A stretch of 39,150 nucleotides of DNA. Source: Planctomycetota bacterium. Lineage in GTDB: Bacteria; Planctomycetota; UBA1135. Below the pieces are notes generated by a model, which saw only the letters and a list, made by a program, of their open reading frames with translations, made no database searches and was not told the origin of the DNA. Positions within the stretch are counted from its first letter, which is position 1. The number at the start of each line of letters is the position of its first letter. The translations under genes were made by a program, and so were the position numbers. The stretch spans positions 1-39,150 of the forward strand of contig JASMKM010000035.1 in assembly GCA_030749235.1 (NCBI GenBank). The letters are read 5' to 3'. This document shows, one piece after another, positions 1 through 10,527 of this stretch.

Positions 1-1112
1 ATAATCGTGATGATAGAGGCGCCGATGGAAAACATCTGAGTCCGAAAGGCCCTTCCAGCCAATAGAGCGTGCTCCAGCGCCAACGCGGCGAAATTCGCGG
101 CTTCACCAATGATTATTAGTAACAGGACCGGAAGGTAGGGAGTAAACTCCTCCGTGTATACGAGTCTCAAGATCTCCTTGCCAAACACCTGAGCGATCAG
201 GTAACCGAGAATGCCAACGAGGCCGGCCGCAAGGGCGAGCCGCAGTCGTAGCTGACGAAACCGCAGGATTCGACCTTCCCCCAGGATATTGGCCAGGCGC
301 GGGCCGGTGGCGCGGGTTGCCGCCTCGACGACCTTCCGGCCGACTGTGGCAAGCAACAGGATGGCTCCGAAGGTGCCAACCTCTTCCTTGTGGTCGGAAG
401 CCATCATCGAGTAGTTTGGGATATTTATTTGCAGGGTGATCAGGAGTCCTGACAAGCCCAGCGGCAGACCCTCCCGAGTGAGTGACTTGATCGAATTGAA
501 GCTGGTGGTCGGAAGCAAGGAGCGGGGTTCCACGCCGACGGAGATTGTGCGTTCCGCATCGAAGACGAGGAGCAGGAGGTGTGCAGCACCCCAGCCGATG
601 AGCGCAAGGCTCAGGCTTTCTGTTTGGTGCAGGACGTAACCAAAGAAAGCAATTGACAGGACCCCCTTCAATGCCATTGAGGATGCGATGCCCCCCATGC
701 ATTCCGCCCTCTGCTGAGCTCCATAGAAGGTCTCGCCGATGGAATAGATTGCTCGGTTGGCGCCAACCAGGAGGAGGCTTGCGAAGGCCGCTTGATTGAA
801 CCCGGAGAAGATGGCCCACGCGGTCAAGGTGAGGAGTGAGACGACCTGGGCGGCCAGGCGCAGCGTCAGGAAATCACCGAACAGGTAGTGCTTCCTGACA
901 TCGAGAGCTTGGATTAGTCGAAGCTGTAGGTTACAGAAGACGATGACCGGTGCCGAAGTCGCCAGGGCAATGACCAAGTTGCTTAGGTGCTCCCCATTTT
1001 CGCTCTTGGTGACGAGCGAAACCATCAACCATTGGCAGGCTGAGTAGATGACACTGCCAGCAAGCGTGAAGTAAAAGTTCGCGCGGATGGAGCGCCTAGC
1101 AACTTGGGCCAT
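1..1112 (-). CDS. Wzx-like polysaccharide flippase / MATE-MOP superfamily membrane protein (3' end truncated by window edge)
   Basis: Manual reverse-strand translation from ATG at 1112 gives an uninterrupted hydrophobic protein, MAQVARRSIRANFYFTLAGSVIYSACQWLMVSLVTKSENGEHLSNLVIALATSAPVIVF..., running to position 1. Not in the ORF track because it is open at the edge. Sits next to a glycosyltransferase. Confidence 0.75.
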   Translation of the reverse strand, partial: MAQVARRSIRANFYFTLAGSVIYSACQWLMVSLVTKSENGEHLSNLVIALATSAPVIVFCNLQLRLIQALDVRKHYLFGDFLTLRLAAQVVSLLTLTAWAIFSGFNQAAFASLLLVGANRAIYSIGETFYGAQQRAECMGGIASSMALKGVLSIAFFGYVLHQTESLSLALIGWGAAHLLLLVFDAERTISVGVEPRSLLPTTSFNSIKSLTREGLPLGLSGLLITLQINIPNYSMMASDHKEEVGTFGAILLLATVGRKVVEAATRATGPRLANILGEGRILRFRQLRLRLALAAGLVGILGYLIAQVFGKEILRLVYTEEFTPYLPVLLLIIIGEAANFAALALEHALLAGRAFRTQMFSIGASIITI

Positions 1113-1150
1113 CTCGGTATGATACCACTGTAGGTTTAACTGGATCACGG

Positions 1151-2395
1151 ATGCACATTCTCCTTTTACGTCAGCACTTCGCGCTACCTGACCAGGCTGG
1201 CTCCGGCCGCCCTTATGAGATGGCATCCCGTTGGATTAAGGCGGGTCATCAGGTGACGATTGTGACCTCCTCGGCGAAGCTCTCGCCGCAACACAAGTCA
1301 GAAGGGGGTGTCATCCGGACCACCGTCGATGGCATCCGGATCATCGCCGTCGATGTACCTTATGAGAACCATTTTGGCTACATCCGGCGCATCTTCGCCT
1401 TCCTCTCCTTCGCCCGCAAATGCGTTAAGGCTTGCCGCGATCTCGACGATGTCGACGTCGTGCTCGGTTCGAGCACTCCGCTCACCGTGGCAGTCCCTGC
1501 AGTCCGCTTGTCTCGGAAGCTCCGTGTTCCGATGGTCTTTGAGGTGCGTGACCTGTGGCCGGAAATGCCGATCGCCATCGGCGCGATTCGTAACCCTATT
1601 CTGAAGGGGGCTGCCAGGGCGTTGGAGCGGTATGCTTATCGGCATTCCAAGCGCATCATCGCCTTGTCGCCAGGGATGGCCTCAGGCATTGCAGCCGCGG
1701 GTTATCCGGAACAGAAGATTGCAATGATCCCCAACGCCAGCGATGTGGCGAGGTTTAGGAGCCCGAACGTCTCTGCGGAGGAGTTTCTCGAGGACTATCC
1801 CATGCTGAAGGGGCGCAAGATAGTCCTCTACGCGGGCACCTTAGGGAGATTGAACGGAGTGAGCTACTTGGTGGATGTCGCGCAGGAGATGCAGAAGCTT
1901 GACCCCAAAGTGGCCTTCGTGGTGTTCGGCAACGGCGCTTGCAGGGAGGAGTTGATTCGCAGCGCCGAAAACCGTGGCGTGCTAGACAAGAATTTCTTTT
2001 TCCTCGGGTCCATCCCCAAGAACAAGATTCCCAATGCACATGCTGCGGCATCGATATGCACATCCTTGTTCGTCAACATCCCAGAAATGTGGAAGAATTC
2101 AGCGAACAAGTTCTTCGACACCCTAGCTGCCGCTCGCCCGATTCTAATCAATTATGAGGGATGGCAGCAGAACCTGATTAATGAGTGCGGCATCGGGATT
2201 AGCGTTCCGGCGAAGGACCCTATCGAGGGGGCCAAGCGCATCAATCGATCCATGTCCGACCCGGAGGAGTTGCGGCGAATTGGCAAGAGAGCGGGCGAAC
2301 TTGGCGAAGAACGGTTCAGTCTTGATGACCTTGCTCAACGAGCCCTTAATGTCCTTTGTGCAGCCACGAGCTCCGGTGATGAAAGGCATCCTTAA
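1151..2395 (+). CDS. Glycosyltransferase family 4 (WbuB-like)
   Basis: 414 aa; N-terminal MHILLLRQHFALPDQAGSGRPYEMASRWIKAGHQVTIVTS and C-terminal FVVFGNGACREEL...IPNAHAAASICTSLF typical of GT4. Confidence 0.85.
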   Translation: MHILLLRQHFALPDQAGSGRPYEMASRWIKAGHQVTIVTSSAKLSPQHKSEGGVIRTTVDGIRIIAVDVPYENHFGYIRRIFAFLSFARKCVKACRDLDDVDVVLGSSTPLTVAVPAVRLSRKLRVPMVFEVRDLWPEMPIAIGAIRNPILKGAARALERYAYRHSKRIIALSPGMASGIAAAGYPEQKIAMIPNASDVARFRSPNVSAEEFLEDYPMLKGRKIVLYAGTLGRLNGVSYLVDVAQEMQKLDPKVAFVVFGNGACREELIRSAENRGVLDKNFFFLGSIPKNKIPNAHAAASICTSLFVNIPEMWKNSANKFFDTLAAARPILINYEGWQQNLINECGIGISVPAKDPIEGAKRINRSMSDPEELRRIGKRAGELGEERFSLDDLAQRALNVLCAATSSGDERHP

Positions 2396-3320
2396 GGCAA
2401 TCAAATCTCTGGACCCGGGCTTGTTAAAGCCCTTCGAAGCACTTGCGGCCCCTCCCTTCGCCCCGAAGCGTTCTTCCGATGCCCCCTTAATCATTCTCCT
2501 CGCCACGCCGAGGTCCGGGTCGACCTATTGTTATCAGGCGATGTGCCACCGCTTCGACATCAACTATTTCTCAAACGCGGTCTACATGGGTGCCCGATAT
2601 CCATTCATGAGCACGAGGTTCGCGCGGCGATGGTGTTCACCCTACGTCTCGGACTTCAAGTCCGATTACGGCTTCGTTGCCGGGCTGAATGGGCCAGCCG
2701 AGGCCAACGATATTTGGGGTGAGTGGTTCGACCAGCATCTGGTTGAGGTCGTCCCTGCTCCAGAGGAGAAGCGCCTGACTCGAGCGTTGAACTACTTCGA
2801 TTGGTTGTGGGGTGGGACGGGCAAGCCGTTCGTGACAGGATGGGTGGGCCACATCCTTTATGCGGAGCAGATGGCGTCGTTGTTTCCGAATGCGGTTTTT
2901 GTGAATCTGGAGCGCGCCACTCAAGACGTGGCCACCTCCTTGATCCGTGCCCGCCGGCATGCGGACCAGGATTTTGGGCAGTGGTTCTCCACCCGTAGTC
3001 GGGATTGCCTCGGCGAACCTTCTTGCGATCCTTTTCACGATGTGGTCAAGCAAGTGGTTTCGTTGCAAAGCCGGGCGACAGAATTCGTACAGGCGACCGG
3101 CGACCGGGTTTTTAGATTGAATTATGAGGACCTTTGCAGGGATCCTGAGCACGAGATGAGCAGGCTATCCCGTTTCTGCCGCGAAAGGGGGATCGAACTC
3201 AACCCAAGGACAGACACTCCAGAGATCGCCGGGCATGAGCGGAGTGCCAGAATTGACGATGACTATCGCCAAGTCCAGGAAGCAATCACGAACCTGACGG
3301 GAGATGAGGATGAGGGATGA
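2379..3320 (+). CDS. Sulfotransferase family protein
   Basis: 5'-PSB-like motif LLATPRSGSTYCYQAM and downstream RVFRLNYEDLCRDPEHEMSRLSRFC. Start chosen at ATG 2379 (17-nt overlap with GT4); ATG 2325 is also possible. Confidence 0.75.
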   Translation: MKGILKAIKSLDPGLLKPFEALAAPPFAPKRSSDAPLIILLATPRSGSTYCYQAMCHRFDINYFSNAVYMGARYPFMSTRFARRWCSPYVSDFKSDYGFVAGLNGPAEANDIWGEWFDQHLVEVVPAPEEKRLTRALNYFDWLWGGTGKPFVTGWVGHILYAEQMASLFPNAVFVNLERATQDVATSLIRARRHADQDFGQWFSTRSRDCLGEPSCDPFHDVVKQVVSLQSRATEFVQATGDRVFRLNYEDLCRDPEHEMSRLSRFCRERGIELNPRTDTPEIAGHERSARIDDDYRQVQEAITNLTGDEDEG

Positions 3321-4785
3321 CTTCCAGGATTTCCTAAGGGAGTCAGGGGAACATGTCGTCACCATCGGGGACAACCCCTTCTTTCTCTATAACCGTGGCC
3401 TTATCCATGCCAATGCGCTTCCGCAGGACGGCAAGCCGGCGGGCGCAGCCGAGATGCGCAAGGCGATGGGGGGGAGTTCAGCCTTGCTCCTACGTTGGCA
3501 AGAGAAGGTGGAGGTTGAGACCGAGTGGTGGAGCATGATTTGCCGCGACACGTCTATCTCCCACATGAAGAGAAAGCACCGCCGGACCGTCCGGAAAAAT
3601 ATCGAGCAGGCTCAGTCCGACTTCTCGACACGGAAGGCGACAGCAGCGGAGGTTGTCGAGCTTGCCTATCCAGCCCACGTCGCAGCCCACGAGCGGTATA
3701 AAAATGCCTCGCCCCTGTCACCCGAGGAGTTCTCCGCCAGCGTCCTGAAATTCCAAGACACCGAGCAGGTCGAGTTCTGGTTGTGCAATTGCCAATCAAG
3801 CGGCGAAGTCGTGGGCTGGGCGATGTTCTGGCTAGATTCCTCCGGCGCCTTTCTGCACACCGTCGACATCGCGCCGGGTGCCTTAGCGCACAATGCAGGG
3901 TATGGCTTTATTTATACGTGTTTGGATGATTATGTAGAGGTAAGGGGGCTGCCAGTTTCGAACGGCACTCGGCCGGTCTCTCACGCCACCGGGATGCAGG
4001 ACTTCCTGCGCAAGCTCGGATTCCATAAGGAATATTCGATCCTCCATGTCGAGTACCCACGGTGGATGCGCCTGTTGGTGACCATACTGATGCCAGTGCG
4101 CAGCCTCGTTCCACACCTTGGCCCCCTTCATCTGGTTCGCGCCGTCTTAGATCAAGAGAAGCTCGCGCAAAATTGCCAAGGGCCGACGTTGGCGAGCAGG
4201 GTAATCAAGCGCAGTTTCGACCTGCTCGCCTCGACGGTCATGTTGCTGGCTTTGTCTTGGCTGCTTCTGTTGTGTTGGACCCTCGCCAGTGTCGATACGC
4301 GCGCCAATGGCTTCTTCCGCCAAGTCCGCGTCGGGCGCCACGGCAAGACTTTCCGCTTAATCAAGTTCCGCACGATGGTTGAGGTCGAAGGCCTGACCAC
4401 GACCGTTACCACCGCCGGCGATTGTCGCATTACTAAGCTTGGCGGCTGGCTGAGGAGGACTAAGATCGATGAGCTGCCGCAATTAATGAACGTGTTCCTT
4501 GGGCACATGAGCCTGGTCGGTCCGCGTCCAGATGTACCTGGTTGGGCAGATCAGCTGACCGGAGAGGATGCCGTAATCCTAGAGATGCGGCCGGGCATCA
4601 CGGGGCCAGCGTCGCTGCGGTTCAGGAACGAGGAAGAGTTGCTCGGCGAGCAGCAGGACCCCGAGGCCTACAATCGCGACGTGATTTGGCCGGCGAAAGT
4701 GACGGAAAACAGGGCCTACTACTATAAGCAGTCATTGTTTTTAGATTTTCAGTGCCTGCTCCGCACTTTTTTCCCGTCTAAATAG
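3304..4785 (+). CDS. Fusion protein: N-terminal GNAT/FemAB-like acyltransferase + C-terminal undecaprenyl-phosphate phosphoglycosyl transferase
   Basis: N-half: MKRKHRRTVRKNIEQAQSDFSTRKATAAEVVELAYPAHVAAHERYKN...EVVGWAMFWLDSSGAFLHTVDIAPGALAHNAGYGFIYTCLDDYVEVRG. C-half: KRSFDLLASTVMLLALSW...VGRHGKTFRLIKFRTM...RRTKIDELPQLMNVFLGHMSLVGPRPDVP, the bacterial sugar transferase signature. One continuous ORF. Confidence 0.8.
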   Translation: MRMRDDFQDFLRESGEHVVTIGDNPFFLYNRGLIHANALPQDGKPAGAAEMRKAMGGSSALLLRWQEKVEVETEWWSMICRDTSISHMKRKHRRTVRKNIEQAQSDFSTRKATAAEVVELAYPAHVAAHERYKNASPLSPEEFSASVLKFQDTEQVEFWLCNCQSSGEVVGWAMFWLDSSGAFLHTVDIAPGALAHNAGYGFIYTCLDDYVEVRGLPVSNGTRPVSHATGMQDFLRKLGFHKEYSILHVEYPRWMRLLVTILMPVRSLVPHLGPLHLVRAVLDQEKLAQNCQGPTLASRVIKRSFDLLASTVMLLALSWLLLLCWTLASVDTRANGFFRQVRVGRHGKTFRLIKFRTMVEVEGLTTTVTTAGDCRITKLGGWLRRTKIDELPQLMNVFLGHMSLVGPRPDVPGWADQLTGEDAVILEMRPGITGPASLRFRNEEELLGEQQDPEAYNRDVIWPAKVTENRAYYYKQSLFLDFQCLLRTFFPSK

Positions 4786-4888: not shown

Positions 4889-6883
4889 ATGATTGACGAC
4901 CTCTCACGCCGCCAGAAGCGTCAAATTCTGGTGACGATTGACGTCGCGCTATTCGCGCTGGCGTTATGGACGACCTACGCGATTCGGCTTTCGACCTTAA
5001 CCCCGGATTTCAGTGGCAATTATCTGGTGCTGTTCTTGATTATGTTGGGCGTGAGGATTCCCGCCTTCGGCATGGTGGGGATGTATCGATTTGTCCTTCG
5101 CCACCCGAACAACCAGGTCGTGGCGGTCACCCTTAAGGGCGTCTTGATCTCTACCTTGGCCTTCGGTGCTGCCGTGTTCCTCATGAGGCTTCAGGATGTA
5201 CCGCGCTCCATCCTCCTAATCGAGCCCTTCGTCGCTACCACGCTTGTAATCAGCAGTCGTGAGGTCCTAGCTTGGCTCGTCCGCTCACGCAGCCTCAGTG
5301 GTGCCCGCATGGAGCCGGTTTTGATTTACGGCGCGGGTTCCGCCGGCCTGCAGCTGGCGCAGAGTCTGCGCTACAACACGGAGATGAGCCCAGCGGCTTT
5401 CCTAGATGACGAGCCATCGAAGTGGGGCATGCGCATGGCGGAATTGGCGGTCTATCCGCCCGCACGCATCCCTCGCTTGGTCTCGAAATACGGCATCAAG
5501 AAAGCCTTGCTCGCTGCACCAGCCTCCGATGCTGCCCACCGGCGCCAGATGATTGACATGCTGGAGAAGGCAGGCCTTACCATCCTTGAGGTCCCGAACT
5601 TCCTTGACCTCGTTAGAGGGGGCCAGAGCTTGGCCGACTTGTCCGAGGTCAAGGCGGACGACCTACTGGGACGCCGTGCAGTCTTGCCGGACAAGAACCT
5701 ACTGCGTGAAGTGATTCCAGGCCGCACGGTCCTGATCACTGGCGCTGGGGGCTCGATCGGCAGCGAACTATGCCGCCAGGTCGCTGCCCTTGGCCCCTCC
5801 CAGCTTGTCCTGTTCGAAATCAGCGAGTTCGCTCTCTACACCATCGAGATGCAGCTTGGCGAGCTCTATCCGGAGCTGAAGGTCGCGGCCGTCCTTGGCT
5901 CGGTCCTAGATGAGGATCGCCTCGAGGAGACCTACCGACGCTTCAACGTGGAATCGGTCTATCACGCGGCCGCCTACAAGCACGTGCCGCTGGTGGAGCA
6001 GAACCCGATTGAAGGCGTGCGCAACAACGTTGTCGGTACTTTGAATGCCGCACGCGCCGCTGCGCGTGCGGGAGTGAGCTCCTTCCTGTTCGTGTCCACC
6101 GACAAGGCGGTGCGGCCATGCAACGTGATGGGGGCGAGTAAACGCATGGCCGAGTTGGCTGTGTTGCTGGTCGCTGAGGAGGGCAAGCGTTCGCGCCCCC
6201 AGGCTCAGGGCAAGAACGACTCCACGCGTTTCACCATCGTGCGTTTTGGCAATGTGCTGGATAGTGCAGGCTCTGTGGTTCCACTTTTCCGTCGTCAGAT
6301 TGCGTCGGGCGGGCCTGTCACGGTCACTGATCCAGACGTGCAGCGCTACTTCATGACCATTCCAGAAGCAGCGCAGTTGGTAGTCCAGGCCTCGGCCATG
6401 GGTAGCAATGGCGAAGTCTACCTATTGGACATGGGCGAGCCGATCCGCGTGCACGACCTGGCCAAGCGCATGGTCGATTTCGCCACCCGCGGTTCCGGTC
6501 GCGAGATCCCAATCGCCTTCACCGGCCTTCGCCCTGGCGAGAAGCTGATCGAAGAGCTCTTGGTCGATCCGCGCAACAGCGAAGCCACATCACATCCGAA
6601 GATCTTCAAGGCATCCGAGGAGGGTCCCGACCACGAGACCGTGGCGCGCTTGATCCAGAAGCTGAACAAAGCCCTGGATACCGATGCGCTACCAGCCGTT
6701 TACGGCATCCTGGAGGAACTGGTCGAGGGCTACGGGCGCCCAGAAGCCTCCCAGGACGTGCTTGGCCGCTGTGATTGCAGCTATTCCTTTGCGGCGAACC
6801 ACGAAGACGCAGATGGCGAAACCAGCGAGCCGGCGCAGGGGAAACGCATGCCGGGGTCGCCGTCATCGCGTTGCGTTTCCTAG
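4889..6883 (+). CDS. Nucleoside-diphosphate-sugar epimerase/4,6-dehydratase, CapD/WbpM/PglF-like
   Basis: N-terminal TM region, then Rossmann motif VLITGAGGSIGSELCRQ, VYHAAAYKHVPLVEQNPIEGVRNNVVGT, STDKAVRPCNVMGASKRMAE. Confidence 0.9.
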   Translation: MIDDLSRRQKRQILVTIDVALFALALWTTYAIRLSTLTPDFSGNYLVLFLIMLGVRIPAFGMVGMYRFVLRHPNNQVVAVTLKGVLISTLAFGAAVFLMRLQDVPRSILLIEPFVATTLVISSREVLAWLVRSRSLSGARMEPVLIYGAGSAGLQLAQSLRYNTEMSPAAFLDDEPSKWGMRMAELAVYPPARIPRLVSKYGIKKALLAAPASDAAHRRQMIDMLEKAGLTILEVPNFLDLVRGGQSLADLSEVKADDLLGRRAVLPDKNLLREVIPGRTVLITGAGGSIGSELCRQVAALGPSQLVLFEISEFALYTIEMQLGELYPELKVAAVLGSVLDEDRLEETYRRFNVESVYHAAAYKHVPLVEQNPIEGVRNNVVGTLNAARAAARAGVSSFLFVSTDKAVRPCNVMGASKRMAELAVLLVAEEGKRSRPQAQGKNDSTRFTIVRFGNVLDSAGSVVPLFRRQIASGGPVTVTDPDVQRYFMTIPEAAQLVVQASAMGSNGEVYLLDMGEPIRVHDLAKRMVDFATRGSGREIPIAFTGLRPGEKLIEELLVDPRNSEATSHPKIFKASEEGPDHETVARLIQKLNKALDTDALPAVYGILEELVEGYGRPEASQDVLGRCDCSYSFAANHEDADGETSEPAQGKRMPGSPSSRCVS

Positions 6884-6889
6884 CCAAAG

Positions 6890-6917
6890 TTCACATTATC
6901 TTCACAGGGCGCTTATA
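6890..6917 (+). promoter_or_regulatory. Candidate Pho box: three 11-bp-spaced hexamers TTCACA-ttatc-TTCACA-gggcg-CTTATA
   Basis: Direct repeats read in sequence, 31 bp upstream of the Na/Pi symporter start. The spacing matches the 11-bp period of PhoB/PhoP sites. Confidence 0.5.
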
Positions 6918-6947
6918 GAGTCTTCCGCGAACCCTCACGGAAGGACC

Positions 6948-8102
6948 ATGGACAGCCTCTCGCCCCCCGCCGATTCCCCCGAGAATCCCAAACGCTCAGG
7001 CCTGTCGGCAGCATCTGCCCGCATCGCTGGACTGCTAGCCCTACTGTTCCTGTTCCTGGCCTCCATCAAGTTGATGGAAACCAGCATCAAGCTACTTGGC
7101 TCGGACTACACCGATAACCTGTTCCAGGGCATCTCGAATCCATTCGCCGGCTTGGCTGCAGGCATTCTGGCTACAGTGCTAGTGCAATCCAGCTCGGTAT
7201 CCACCTCGATGATCGTAGCCCTTGTGGGTTCAGGCAGCCTATCGGTGGAAGCCGCCGTGCCGCTGATTATGGGTGCCAATGTCGGCACCACCATTACCAA
7301 TACGCTGGTGTCACTCGGCAGCATCGCGCGCCGCAATGATTTCCGTCGCGCTTTCGCCGCGGCCACGGTCCACGACTTCTTCAATCTGTTGGCGGTGGCG
7401 ATCTTCCTGCCAATCCAGATGATGACCGGCTTCCTGTCCACGGGTGCCAAGGCCATCTCGGAAGTCCTGCCCGTTGGCGATGCTGGCGGCAAGTTCAACA
7501 GCCCGTTGAAGTCGGCAGTGAAATCGGCGGCCGGCAGCGTCCAAGATGGCCTGGAGGCCATCAATCTCAGCGGCGGCTGGCTGTCGATCGTGATGTTGGC
7601 TGTGGGCCTAGGCCTGATCTTTGTATCGCTTACCTCGATTACGAAGTTAATGCGCAAGGTCATCGCCGACCGCGCCGAGAAGGCCTTGAACCGAGCACTG
7701 AAACGCTCCGGCCTAATCGGCATCACCATCGGTGCTTTGATTACCTTCTCCGTGCAATCGTCAAGTATCACCACTTCCTTGCTGGTGCCACTGTGCTCGT
7801 CGGGGGTGTTGACCCTCGACAACGCATTCCCAGTCATGCTGGGTGCTAACATCGGTACAACCATCACGGCATTCCTCGCTTCACTGGCTACCGACATCAA
7901 CGGCCTCCAGATTGCACTGGTGCACATGCTGTTCAACCTTTCGGCGACCATCCTGGTCTATCCGGTCGCGGCCATCCGCCGGATCCCGATCCGACTCGCT
8001 CGCGGGCTGGCGGTGACCGCTGTGCGCAACAAGGTGATCGTCATAGCCTACGTCTTCGTGATGTTCGTCCTCATCCCGGTCAGCGGGGTCTTCCTCTTCT
8101 AA
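6948..8102 (+). CDS. Na+/phosphate cotransporter family protein (NptA/PNaS)
   Basis: Two QSSS repeats: VQSSSVSTSMIVALVGSG...GANVGTTITN and VQSSSITTSLLVPLCSSG...GANIGTTITA. Start ATG 6948 preferred over the 6684 ORF start. Confidence 0.9.
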   Translation: MDSLSPPADSPENPKRSGLSAASARIAGLLALLFLFLASIKLMETSIKLLGSDYTDNLFQGISNPFAGLAAGILATVLVQSSSVSTSMIVALVGSGSLSVEAAVPLIMGANVGTTITNTLVSLGSIARRNDFRRAFAAATVHDFFNLLAVAIFLPIQMMTGFLSTGAKAISEVLPVGDAGGKFNSPLKSAVKSAAGSVQDGLEAINLSGGWLSIVMLAVGLGLIFVSLTSITKLMRKVIADRAEKALNRALKRSGLIGITIGALITFSVQSSSITTSLLVPLCSSGVLTLDNAFPVMLGANIGTTITAFLASLATDINGLQIALVHMLFNLSATILVYPVAAIRRIPIRLARGLAVTAVRNKVIVIAYVFVMFVLIPVSGVFLF

Positions 8103-8955: not shown

Positions 8956-10527
8956 TCAGGGAATCGCAAGCTCTAAACCGTTCAGTTTGGAGATTGGGCG
9001 TTGCGCATCGACCTCAATCATCCATGCGCGCAACAAGCCCTGCATATGCGCGGCAATATCCGGCTTATCCTGCAACAAGTTGTGTTGCTCACCCAGGTCC
9101 GACGCCAAGTCGTACAGCTCCCACTCGGCAGCCTCGTACCAATAGATGATCTTCCAATCACCTTCGCGTAAGGATGTGAAGGGTTCATAGCGATCGCCAT
9201 TCGGACCCCACTTATGTGGGTAATGCCAAGCAAGCGCGCGCTGTTGCGGAACCGATTCCGCGCCTTTCAACAACGGCAGGAAACTCTGTCCATGCGCAGC
9301 AGCGGCATCGATGATGGCGGCGTCGACGCCGGCAAGTTGCAGCAGACTGATATAGAGATCAGTGGACAGCACCGGACTGTGATTCTCGCTATCCGCCTCG
9401 ATCGTCATCCATCCAGGTTGATCACCAGCCCAGGCCACGATCATCGGCACGCGTGTGCCGCCCTCATAACCGGACCCCTTGCCGGACCGCAGCGGCTTGT
9501 TGTGCGTATCCTTGCCGGTTCCTGCAGGGGTGGCGCCGCGCGCATGTGCACTTAACCCGCCGTTGTCGGAGAAGAACACGATCAAGGTGTTGTCGGCGAT
9601 GTCGAGTTGCTCAAGCTTGGACCAGATCCTCCCGAGGCTGTTGTCCATGCCGGCAACCAATCCAGCGTAACGCGCTTCAGCATCATCGAGGCCTTCGGCG
9701 CGGTAGTCGGCGTAATAACGGGGATCCTTGTGGATCGGCGCATGGACTGCGTAGTGCGCCATGTTCATGAAGAAGGGGCGGCCGTCGAGGACGGCGGCCT
9801 CGATTTCCTTTTCAGCTTCAAGGGTGAGGGCTTCGGTCAAGAAAGTCTCTGTTCCGTGATACTCCTCAAGACCAGGCACGCCCCATGGCCCATCCTTTTG
9901 GTTGCCGTAATCTTTCTCGCCGAAGTAACTGCCGGGGCCACCGGCGGCATGTCCTGCCACGTTTCGTTCAAAGCCGAGCAGCAAGGGGTTTGCACCGGGA
10001 GTGGTGCGAGCACCGAAGTGCGCCTTGCCGACATGGATGGTGCGGTAACCGCGCGCGGCCATTATGTTGGTCAGCAGGTATGGGTCCGGGCCCAAGCCAG
10101 CCTTATTCCATGCCGGGTCCGACAGCTCCTCCATGCTGCGCGAAAAATCGCGATCCACATGCAAGGTCCAATCGGTGATGCGTGTGGTGGCCGGATGTTG
10201 ACCGCGCAAGATGCTGGTGCGCGTCGGCGTACAGACTGGACTAGCAGCATAGGCTTGGGTGAACTTCATGCCACGCGAAGCCAGGCGCTCCAGATTGGGT
10301 GTTTGATACTGCTTGTTGAAGCCAGTGGCTTCGCTATGCATTGGCACGCTCAAGTCCTGCCAGCCGAGATCATCCACCAAATACAAGATGATGTTCGGCG
10401 GTGTGGCCGATGCGGTTTTGCCGATGGACCCAGAACAGGAAACGGCTGCGACCGCAACCAGGAGGAATGCGAATCGCAGCCGTGAAAACAACACGTTGCT
10501 TAGGCGAGGCGCTTGATGACGTGCCAA
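8956..10527 (-). CDS. Type I sulfatase (formylglycine-dependent), probable lipoprotein
   Basis: NIILYLVDDLGWQDLSV and sulfatase signature PVCTPTRTSILRGQHPATT. Lipobox-like VAAVSC near the N-terminus. The real start may be a GTG/TTG slightly inside (about 10497). Confidence 0.92.
   Translation of the reverse strand: MARHQAPRLSNVLFSRLRFAFLLVAVAAVSCSGSIGKTASATPPNIILYLVDDLGWQDLSVPMHSEATGFNKQYQTPNLERLASRGMKFTQAYAASPVCTPTRTSILRGQHPATTRITDWTLHVDRDFSRSMEELSDPAWNKAGLGPDPYLLTNIMAARGYRTIHVGKAHFGARTTPGANPLLLGFERNVAGHAAGGPGSYFGEKDYGNQKDGPWGVPGLEEYHGTETFLTEALTLEAEKEIEAAVLDGRPFFMNMAHYAVHAPIHKDPRYYADYRAEGLDDAEARYAGLVAGMDNSLGRIWSKLEQLDIADNTLIVFFSDNGGLSAHARGATPAGTGKDTHNKPLRSGKGSGYEGGTRVPMIVAWAGDQPGWMTIEADSENHSPVLSTDLYISLLQLAGVDAAIIDAAAAHGQSFLPLLKGAESVPQQRALAWHYPHKWGPNGDRYEPFTSLREGDWKIIYWYEAAEWELYDLASDLGEQHNLLQDKPDIAAHMQGLLRAWMIEVDAQRPISKLNGLELAIP

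Follow-up and report, generated by a model that had tools for sequence, protein, structure and literature searches.

The window analyzed here, a stretch of 39,150 nucleotides from the Planctomycetota bacterium contig JASMKM010000035.1, belongs to a planctomycete genome (G000) of 2.4 Mb that is 89.8% complete. Near its left end, a single open reading frame joins an unclassified N-terminal domain to a small monotopic phosphoglycosyl transferase (PGT) among genes for polysaccharide synthesis. The features are listed below, all in window coordinates except the last, which lies in another planctomycete genome (G185):

3–1226, minus strand: flippase-like ORF that runs off the contig, with an orthologue in locus L006
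1151–2395, plus strand: GT4 glycosyltransferase of the same cluster (domain search)
2181–3320, plus strand: sulfotransferase (PF13469, domain search), overlapping the start of the fusion by 17 nt
3304–4785, plus strand: fusion ORF of 493 aa, unclassified N-terminal domain plus small monotopic PGT (uninterrupted reading; conserved in L006 and L007)
3304–4059, plus strand: N-terminal domain, residues 1–252, proposed sugar-nucleotide N-acyltransferase, possibly GNAT/FemAB-like (distant standalone homologue; no library match)
3574–3597, plus strand: basic motif KHRRTVRK, residues 91–98 (alignment with the standalone homologue; HHalign register)
3982–4008, plus strand: HATGMQDFL, residues 227–235, the most conserved block of the N-terminal domain (alignment with the standalone homologue)
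4060–4170, plus strand: linker of two predicted helices, residues 253–268 and 273–289, leading from the N-terminal domain to the PGT (AlphaFold model)
4207–4773, plus strand: monotopic PGT catalytic domain (PF02397), residues 302–490 (Pfam Bac_transf; PDB relatives WbaP and PglC)
4210–4293, plus strand: expected reentrant membrane helix, RSFDLLASTVMLLALSWLLLLCWTLASV (sequence and clade alignment)
4468–4473, plus strand: catalytic Asp-Glu dyad, D389 and E390 (sequence; dyad per PMC10519829)
4889–6883, plus strand: PglF/WbpM-like membrane nucleotide-sugar 4,6-dehydratase (Polysacc_synt_2, E 2.5e-111, and CoA_binding_3)
L010 7821–8708, minus strand: standalone homologue of the N-terminal domain (profile match, E 2.5e-24)

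The fusion ORF reads through 493 codons with no internal stop and places about 290 residues ahead of the PGT, which confirms the sequence-only reading that a single frame joins an N-terminal region to a full monotopic PGT. The two-part layout of that reading stands, but its border near position 4195 is better moved to around residue 300 (window 4207). The window has no ATG close to the border, and an in-frame TTG is found at 4189. Neither a stop nor a frameshift, which had been named as the finding that would undo the fusion, separates the domains, and all three genomes with the fusion, which span two genera, keep the reading frame across the junction. A second species of the genus has the same fusion (L004/L006; CALFOT010000127.1, ORF 5602–7137), with 76% identity to the window protein in the N-terminal half and 79% in the PGT. 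The third example comes from a different genus in the family (L005/L007; JAPKEZ010000138.1, ORF 2–874) and is 63% identical in the PGT and 70% in the N-terminal half, which is partial there as the contig starts within it. The architecture is rare: 3 of 101 near relatives carry it, as do 3 of 154 genomes from the order or class. Every fused sequence comes from a many-contig draft assembly, a point in favor of an assembly or annotation artefact; against this, assemblies made independently from different species and genera share the same in-frame junction with 63–79% identity on both sides. Because the fusion is conserved in L006/L004 and L007/L005, neither chance nor a frameshift or assembly artefact can explain it. 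We therefore rule out the artefact, to which we attach a vanishingly small probability, and regard the fusion as genuine.

The C-terminal half is, on its sequence, undoubtedly a small monotopic PGT. It matches Bac_transf with an E-value of 2.3e-47 (161 bits; cut-off 27), and its nearest solved relatives are WbaP and the PglC of C. concisus. The motifs KFRTM, KIDELPQL and GPRP (residues 406–409) were found; KIDELPQL contains the D389-E390 dyad, a catalytic feature of PGTs (PMC10519829), and both this dyad and GPRP are invariant across the PGT alignment. The half begins with a hydrophobic helix in which Ser-Trp occupies the position of the Ser-Pro kink that bends the reentrant membrane helix of PglC (PMC10519829). 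This Ser-Pro is replaced by Ser/Gly-Trp (e.g., LSWLLLL, TGWIIIL) in 12 of 13 PGTs of the clade and the proline is kept only in G006, in a comparison that covered the PGTs of the window, L006, L007, L010, L044–L049, L050 and L024. Membrane topology in the clade may differ from the PglC model. The GLLP motif, which marks diNAcBac-specific PGTs when present in the mobile loop (PMC10942596), is absent from the window PGT (loop VEVEGLTTTVTTAGDC) and from every member of the clade; the substrate is therefore probably not diNAcBac itself, and we disfavored that sugar.

A tree of the PGTs groups the three fused ones together (97/94), with a clade (99/99) that contains the PGT of G185 as their sister (98/97). 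All 13 sequences constitute a single group (100/100) separate from other small PGTs, and most other sampled members of this group adjoin a LegC/PglE-like aminotransferase. The fused PGTs have their nearer relatives in distant planctomycetes (G185, G333), ahead of PGTs from the same genus (G000/G002 compared with G003–G006). The aminotransferases, by contrast, follow host family, so the two enzymes differ in their history. In a separate example of a bifunctional planctomycete PGT, a small PGT is followed in one ORF by a SAM-dependent methyltransferase-like domain (L040 1435–2943, G359; EVLEVACGSGIG).

The surrounding genes are those of a surface-polysaccharide locus. The GT4 glycosyltransferase, sulfotransferase and flippase are common to the window and L006, and in both the PglF-like dehydratase lies directly 3' of the fusion. 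The sulfotransferase and fusion are probably co-transcribed because their ORFs overlap by 17 nt. In L006, a Wzy/ligase-like protein and then an aminotransferase come after the flippase orthologue; the Wzy/ligase-like and aminotransferase genes are also adjacent in the window's genome, on contig C62 (L117). The aminotransferase is present in all three fused genomes, at varying positions: directly after the fusion in L007, at the opposite end of the locus in L006, and on another contig in the window's genome. Its best PDB relatives include 1o61 (1.7e-95) and PglE (4ztc, 8e-95) and its best NCBIfam model is that of the LegC family (TIGR04181), below cut-off; judged by these matches, it is PglE/EpsN/LegC-like. 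No NeuD/PglD-type protein (TIGR03570) scored above cut-off in the genomes containing the fusion or the standalone homologue. The apparent lack of PglD is weak evidence, given that the fused genomes are 84–90% complete. Sulfotransferases of PF13469 adjoin these PGTs repeatedly (window 2181–3320, L006 4632–5669, L048 6866–7750, L049 5510–6400), a recurrence that suggests that planctomycete polysaccharides are sulfated. The window also has a sulfatase-like gene on the minus strand (8956–10527).

The sequence-only reading had assigned the N-terminal half to the GNAT/FemAB fold, and our searches did not establish this. Neither Pfam, NCBIfam nor the PDB, the last searched by sequence and profile, gave a significant match for the N-terminal half. 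With its relatives included, only DUF6151 (E 0.15) was returned by Pfam up to E 10, and no GNAT or FemAB model matched the half even at that threshold. HHalign of the domain against 23 planctomycete PF13480 proteins scored 15.2, which lies inside the null from 60 shuffles (mean 12.9, maximum 19.7). In the register of this alignment, which followed 124 columns at that within-null score, K-R-K-H-R-R-T-V-R-K was placed on the R/K-rich helix of PF13480; the KHRRTVRK motif resembles the R/K-rich helix of FemAB/GNAT_6 proteins, and its K91, R93, R97 and K98 are unchanged in the standalone homologue. A left-handed beta-helix (LbH) acetyltransferase was rejected as the identity of the domain, since the fusion protein matched neither LbH models nor TIGR03570.

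AlphaFold2 models, built from three-row alignments, reached a pLDDT of 38 for the full protein and 40 for the N-terminal domain alone, too low for fold assignment; the linker helices are the best-scored part (block-mean pLDDT 55–80). The predicted order of elements in the domain (helix 114–134, helix 140–147, strands 156–159, 171–177 and 183–189, helix 198–213, helix 227–237) is, with low confidence, that of the GNAT core. A Foldseek search of the PDB with the domain model (pLDDT 40) returned nothing significant (best E 0.8), though three weak GNAT matches (7wx5, 3tt2, 7kps) were among the hits of higher probability. On the predicted order of elements, GNAT/FemAB is a plausible assignment, which we treat as a reasonable guess.

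A profile search across 392 genomes from the phylum identified one further relative of the N-terminal domain, encoded by a separate gene for 295 aa in G185 (E 2.5e-24, 27% identity). Viral contigs, phages, plasmids and several hundred planctomycete genomes yielded no relatives beyond this protein and the three fusions. About 60 positions of the domain, many charged or polar, are invariant down to 27% identity. The G185 cluster encodes, on one strand, a GT4 glycosyltransferase, the N-domain homologue, an ordinary GNAT (PF00583, E 2e-13; L010), a PGT 54% identical to that of the window, and an aminotransferase. The order of N-terminal domain, PGT and aminotransferase is alike in the fused and unfused arrangements. 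Acylation of the 4-amino group in G185 could thus fall to the homologue or to the ordinary GNAT, since both are encoded there.

Sister clusters without the fusion contain other candidates at this place. In L045, a 213-aa GNAT-like protein (6983–7621; motif CGRGLGRYL; PF00583 at E 0.014, below cut-off) is encoded just upstream of the sister PGT. Pairs of ATP-grasp and HAD-hydrolase genes lie upstream of the sister PGT-aminotransferase pairs in L044 (8749–10547, minus strand) and L046 (6124–8021), and possibly represent an alternative N-acylation module. No evident acyltransferase was found near the PGT-aminotransferase pairs of G003–G006, the closest such pairs in the genus and family of the window's genome; for this reason, loading may be possible without 4-N-acylation.

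The C-terminal domain of Neisseria PglB2 is an ATP-grasp, and the fusion has no domain of this type. PglB2 differs from PglB in its C-terminal domain and makes a glyceramido sugar, GATDH, indicating that the acyl-modifying module on such a PGT is exchangeable (PMC6959607). Neisseria PglB itself combines 4-amino-sugar acetylation with a PGT in one protein (PMC6959607). The fusion resembles it in joining a small monotopic PGT with what we propose to be a sugar 4-N-acyltransferase, and in having PglF- and PglE-type partners in its locus. It differs in that the domain order is reversed, the modifier coming first; that this modifier matches neither LbH models nor TIGR03570, whereas that of PglB is PglD-type (LbH); that the PGT lacks the GLLP diNAcBac loop; and that its neighbors are the Wzx/Wzy and sulfotransferase genes of a polysaccharide cluster. 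Bifunctional PGTs (Bi-PGTs) are a recognized class with extra domains at either end of the monoPGT (PMC10942596). The fusion shares with them an additional domain on a monoPGT core within an uninterrupted conserved ORF, although this domain matches no described family in Pfam, NCBIfam or the PDB. In B. subtilis and Campylobacter, a dehydratase, an aminotransferase and an acetyltransferase supply UDP-diNAcBac to the PGT EpsL or PglC (PMC10653937). The same dehydratase, aminotransferase, acyltransferase and PGT steps are expected here, but EpsC/EpsN/EpsM/EpsL and C. jejuni PglF/PglE/PglD/PglC are all separate proteins, with an EpsM/PglD-type acetyltransferase and another PGT fingerprint. Caulobacter HfsK and GNAT/FemAB-like proteins of polysaccharide loci provide a precedent for a GNAT/FemX-type N-acyltransferase at the membrane (PMC5362036), to which the likeness of the fusion domain is putative; in contrast, HfsK has no PGT fused to it. 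Most simply, the fusion would be another bifunctional PGT, with an N-terminal domain for acyl transfer that would come from an unrecognized family.

We propose that the fusion is a PglB-like bifunctional enzyme that would initiate synthesis in a Wzx/Wzy-type surface-polysaccharide cluster, acting like Neisseria PglB, and we give this explanation an even chance of being correct. The PglF-like dehydratase and PglE/EpsN-like aminotransferase of the locus would produce a UDP-2-acetamido-4-amino-2,4,6-trideoxyhexose, the N-terminal domain would acylate (or aminoacylate) the 4-amino group so formed, and the fused PGT would then transfer the acylated sugar-1-phosphate to undecaprenyl phosphate. The glycan would be finished by the GT4 glycosyltransferase, sulfotransferase, flippase and polymerase. 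What the sequences show directly is the fusion, the PGT domain with its catalytic residues, the gene context and the standalone homologue next to a sister PGT; the acyltransferase role of the N-terminal domain, its donor, the sugar and the sequence of steps are inferred. The dehydratase, the aminotransferase, the lack of a PglD-type protein above cut-off and the occurrence in G185 of the standalone homologue next to an unfused sister PGT fit well with the earlier suggestion that acylation is coupled to lipid loading in the manner of PglB, although the available sequences did not establish the fold name attached to it. The other acyl-transfer candidates upstream of the PGT in sister clusters (L045, L010, L044/L046) also favor the proposal, as do the conservation of the fusion in three genomes, the grouping of its PGTs with aminotransferase-linked relatives, the Neisseria precedents and, with low confidence, the GNAT-like order of elements. 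Against it, no acyltransferase matched the N-terminal domain significantly in sequence or in fold, and in G185 the 4-N-acetyltransferase might instead be the ordinary GNAT encoded beside the homologue.

Alternatively, the N-terminal domain might be an acyl- or aminoacyltransferase that works once the PGT has acted, modifying the undecaprenyl-diphosphate-linked sugar or some later intermediate at the membrane surface, in the way FemX-type enzymes work on cell-wall precursors; fusion would then serve to recruit it to the membrane. The FemAB-like basic motif, the helical linker adjoining the membrane helix and the existence of PGT-aminotransferase pairs without any acyltransferase are consistent with such a role, as is HfsK, a GNAT with FemX as its closest solved homologue that acts at the membrane in holdfast biogenesis (PMC5362036). 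We consider this rather unlikely: kinship to FemAB is without statistical support, and for the known fusions PglB and PglB2 the described target is the UDP-sugar or the 4-amino group on it (PMC6959607).

The predicted GNAT-like order of elements, the acyltransferase-type proteins that fill the slot upstream of the PGT in several sister clusters, and the lack of another candidate for the expected 4-N-acylation step in the fused clusters all argue against the domain being a sugar-modifying enzyme of a different kind and of unassigned fold; we hold that option to be unlikely, though it would account for the domain being recognized by none of Pfam, NCBIfam and the PDB. A catalytically dead domain, with a regulatory or scaffolding part in PGT function, is in our view very unlikely. 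Large PGTs normally carry accessory domains of unclear role (PMC10942596) and same-genus PGT-aminotransferase pairs do exist without the N-terminal domain, but a dead domain would hardly keep some 60 invariant positions, many charged or polar, at 27% identity, nor would it be expected to exist as a gene of its own, as it does in G185.

The first sugar placed on the lipid carrier commits the cell to a glycan, and the PGT chooses that sugar. A PGT with a modifying domain of its own, drawn from an unrecognized family, would reveal acyl decoration of the first sugar to be an exchangeable module, and the N-terminal domain would be a possible new acyltransferase for the synthesis of rare amino sugars. 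The existence of separate and fused versions makes the proposed coupling directly testable. The locus would, moreover, provide a handle on the poorly known surface polysaccharides of planctomycetes.
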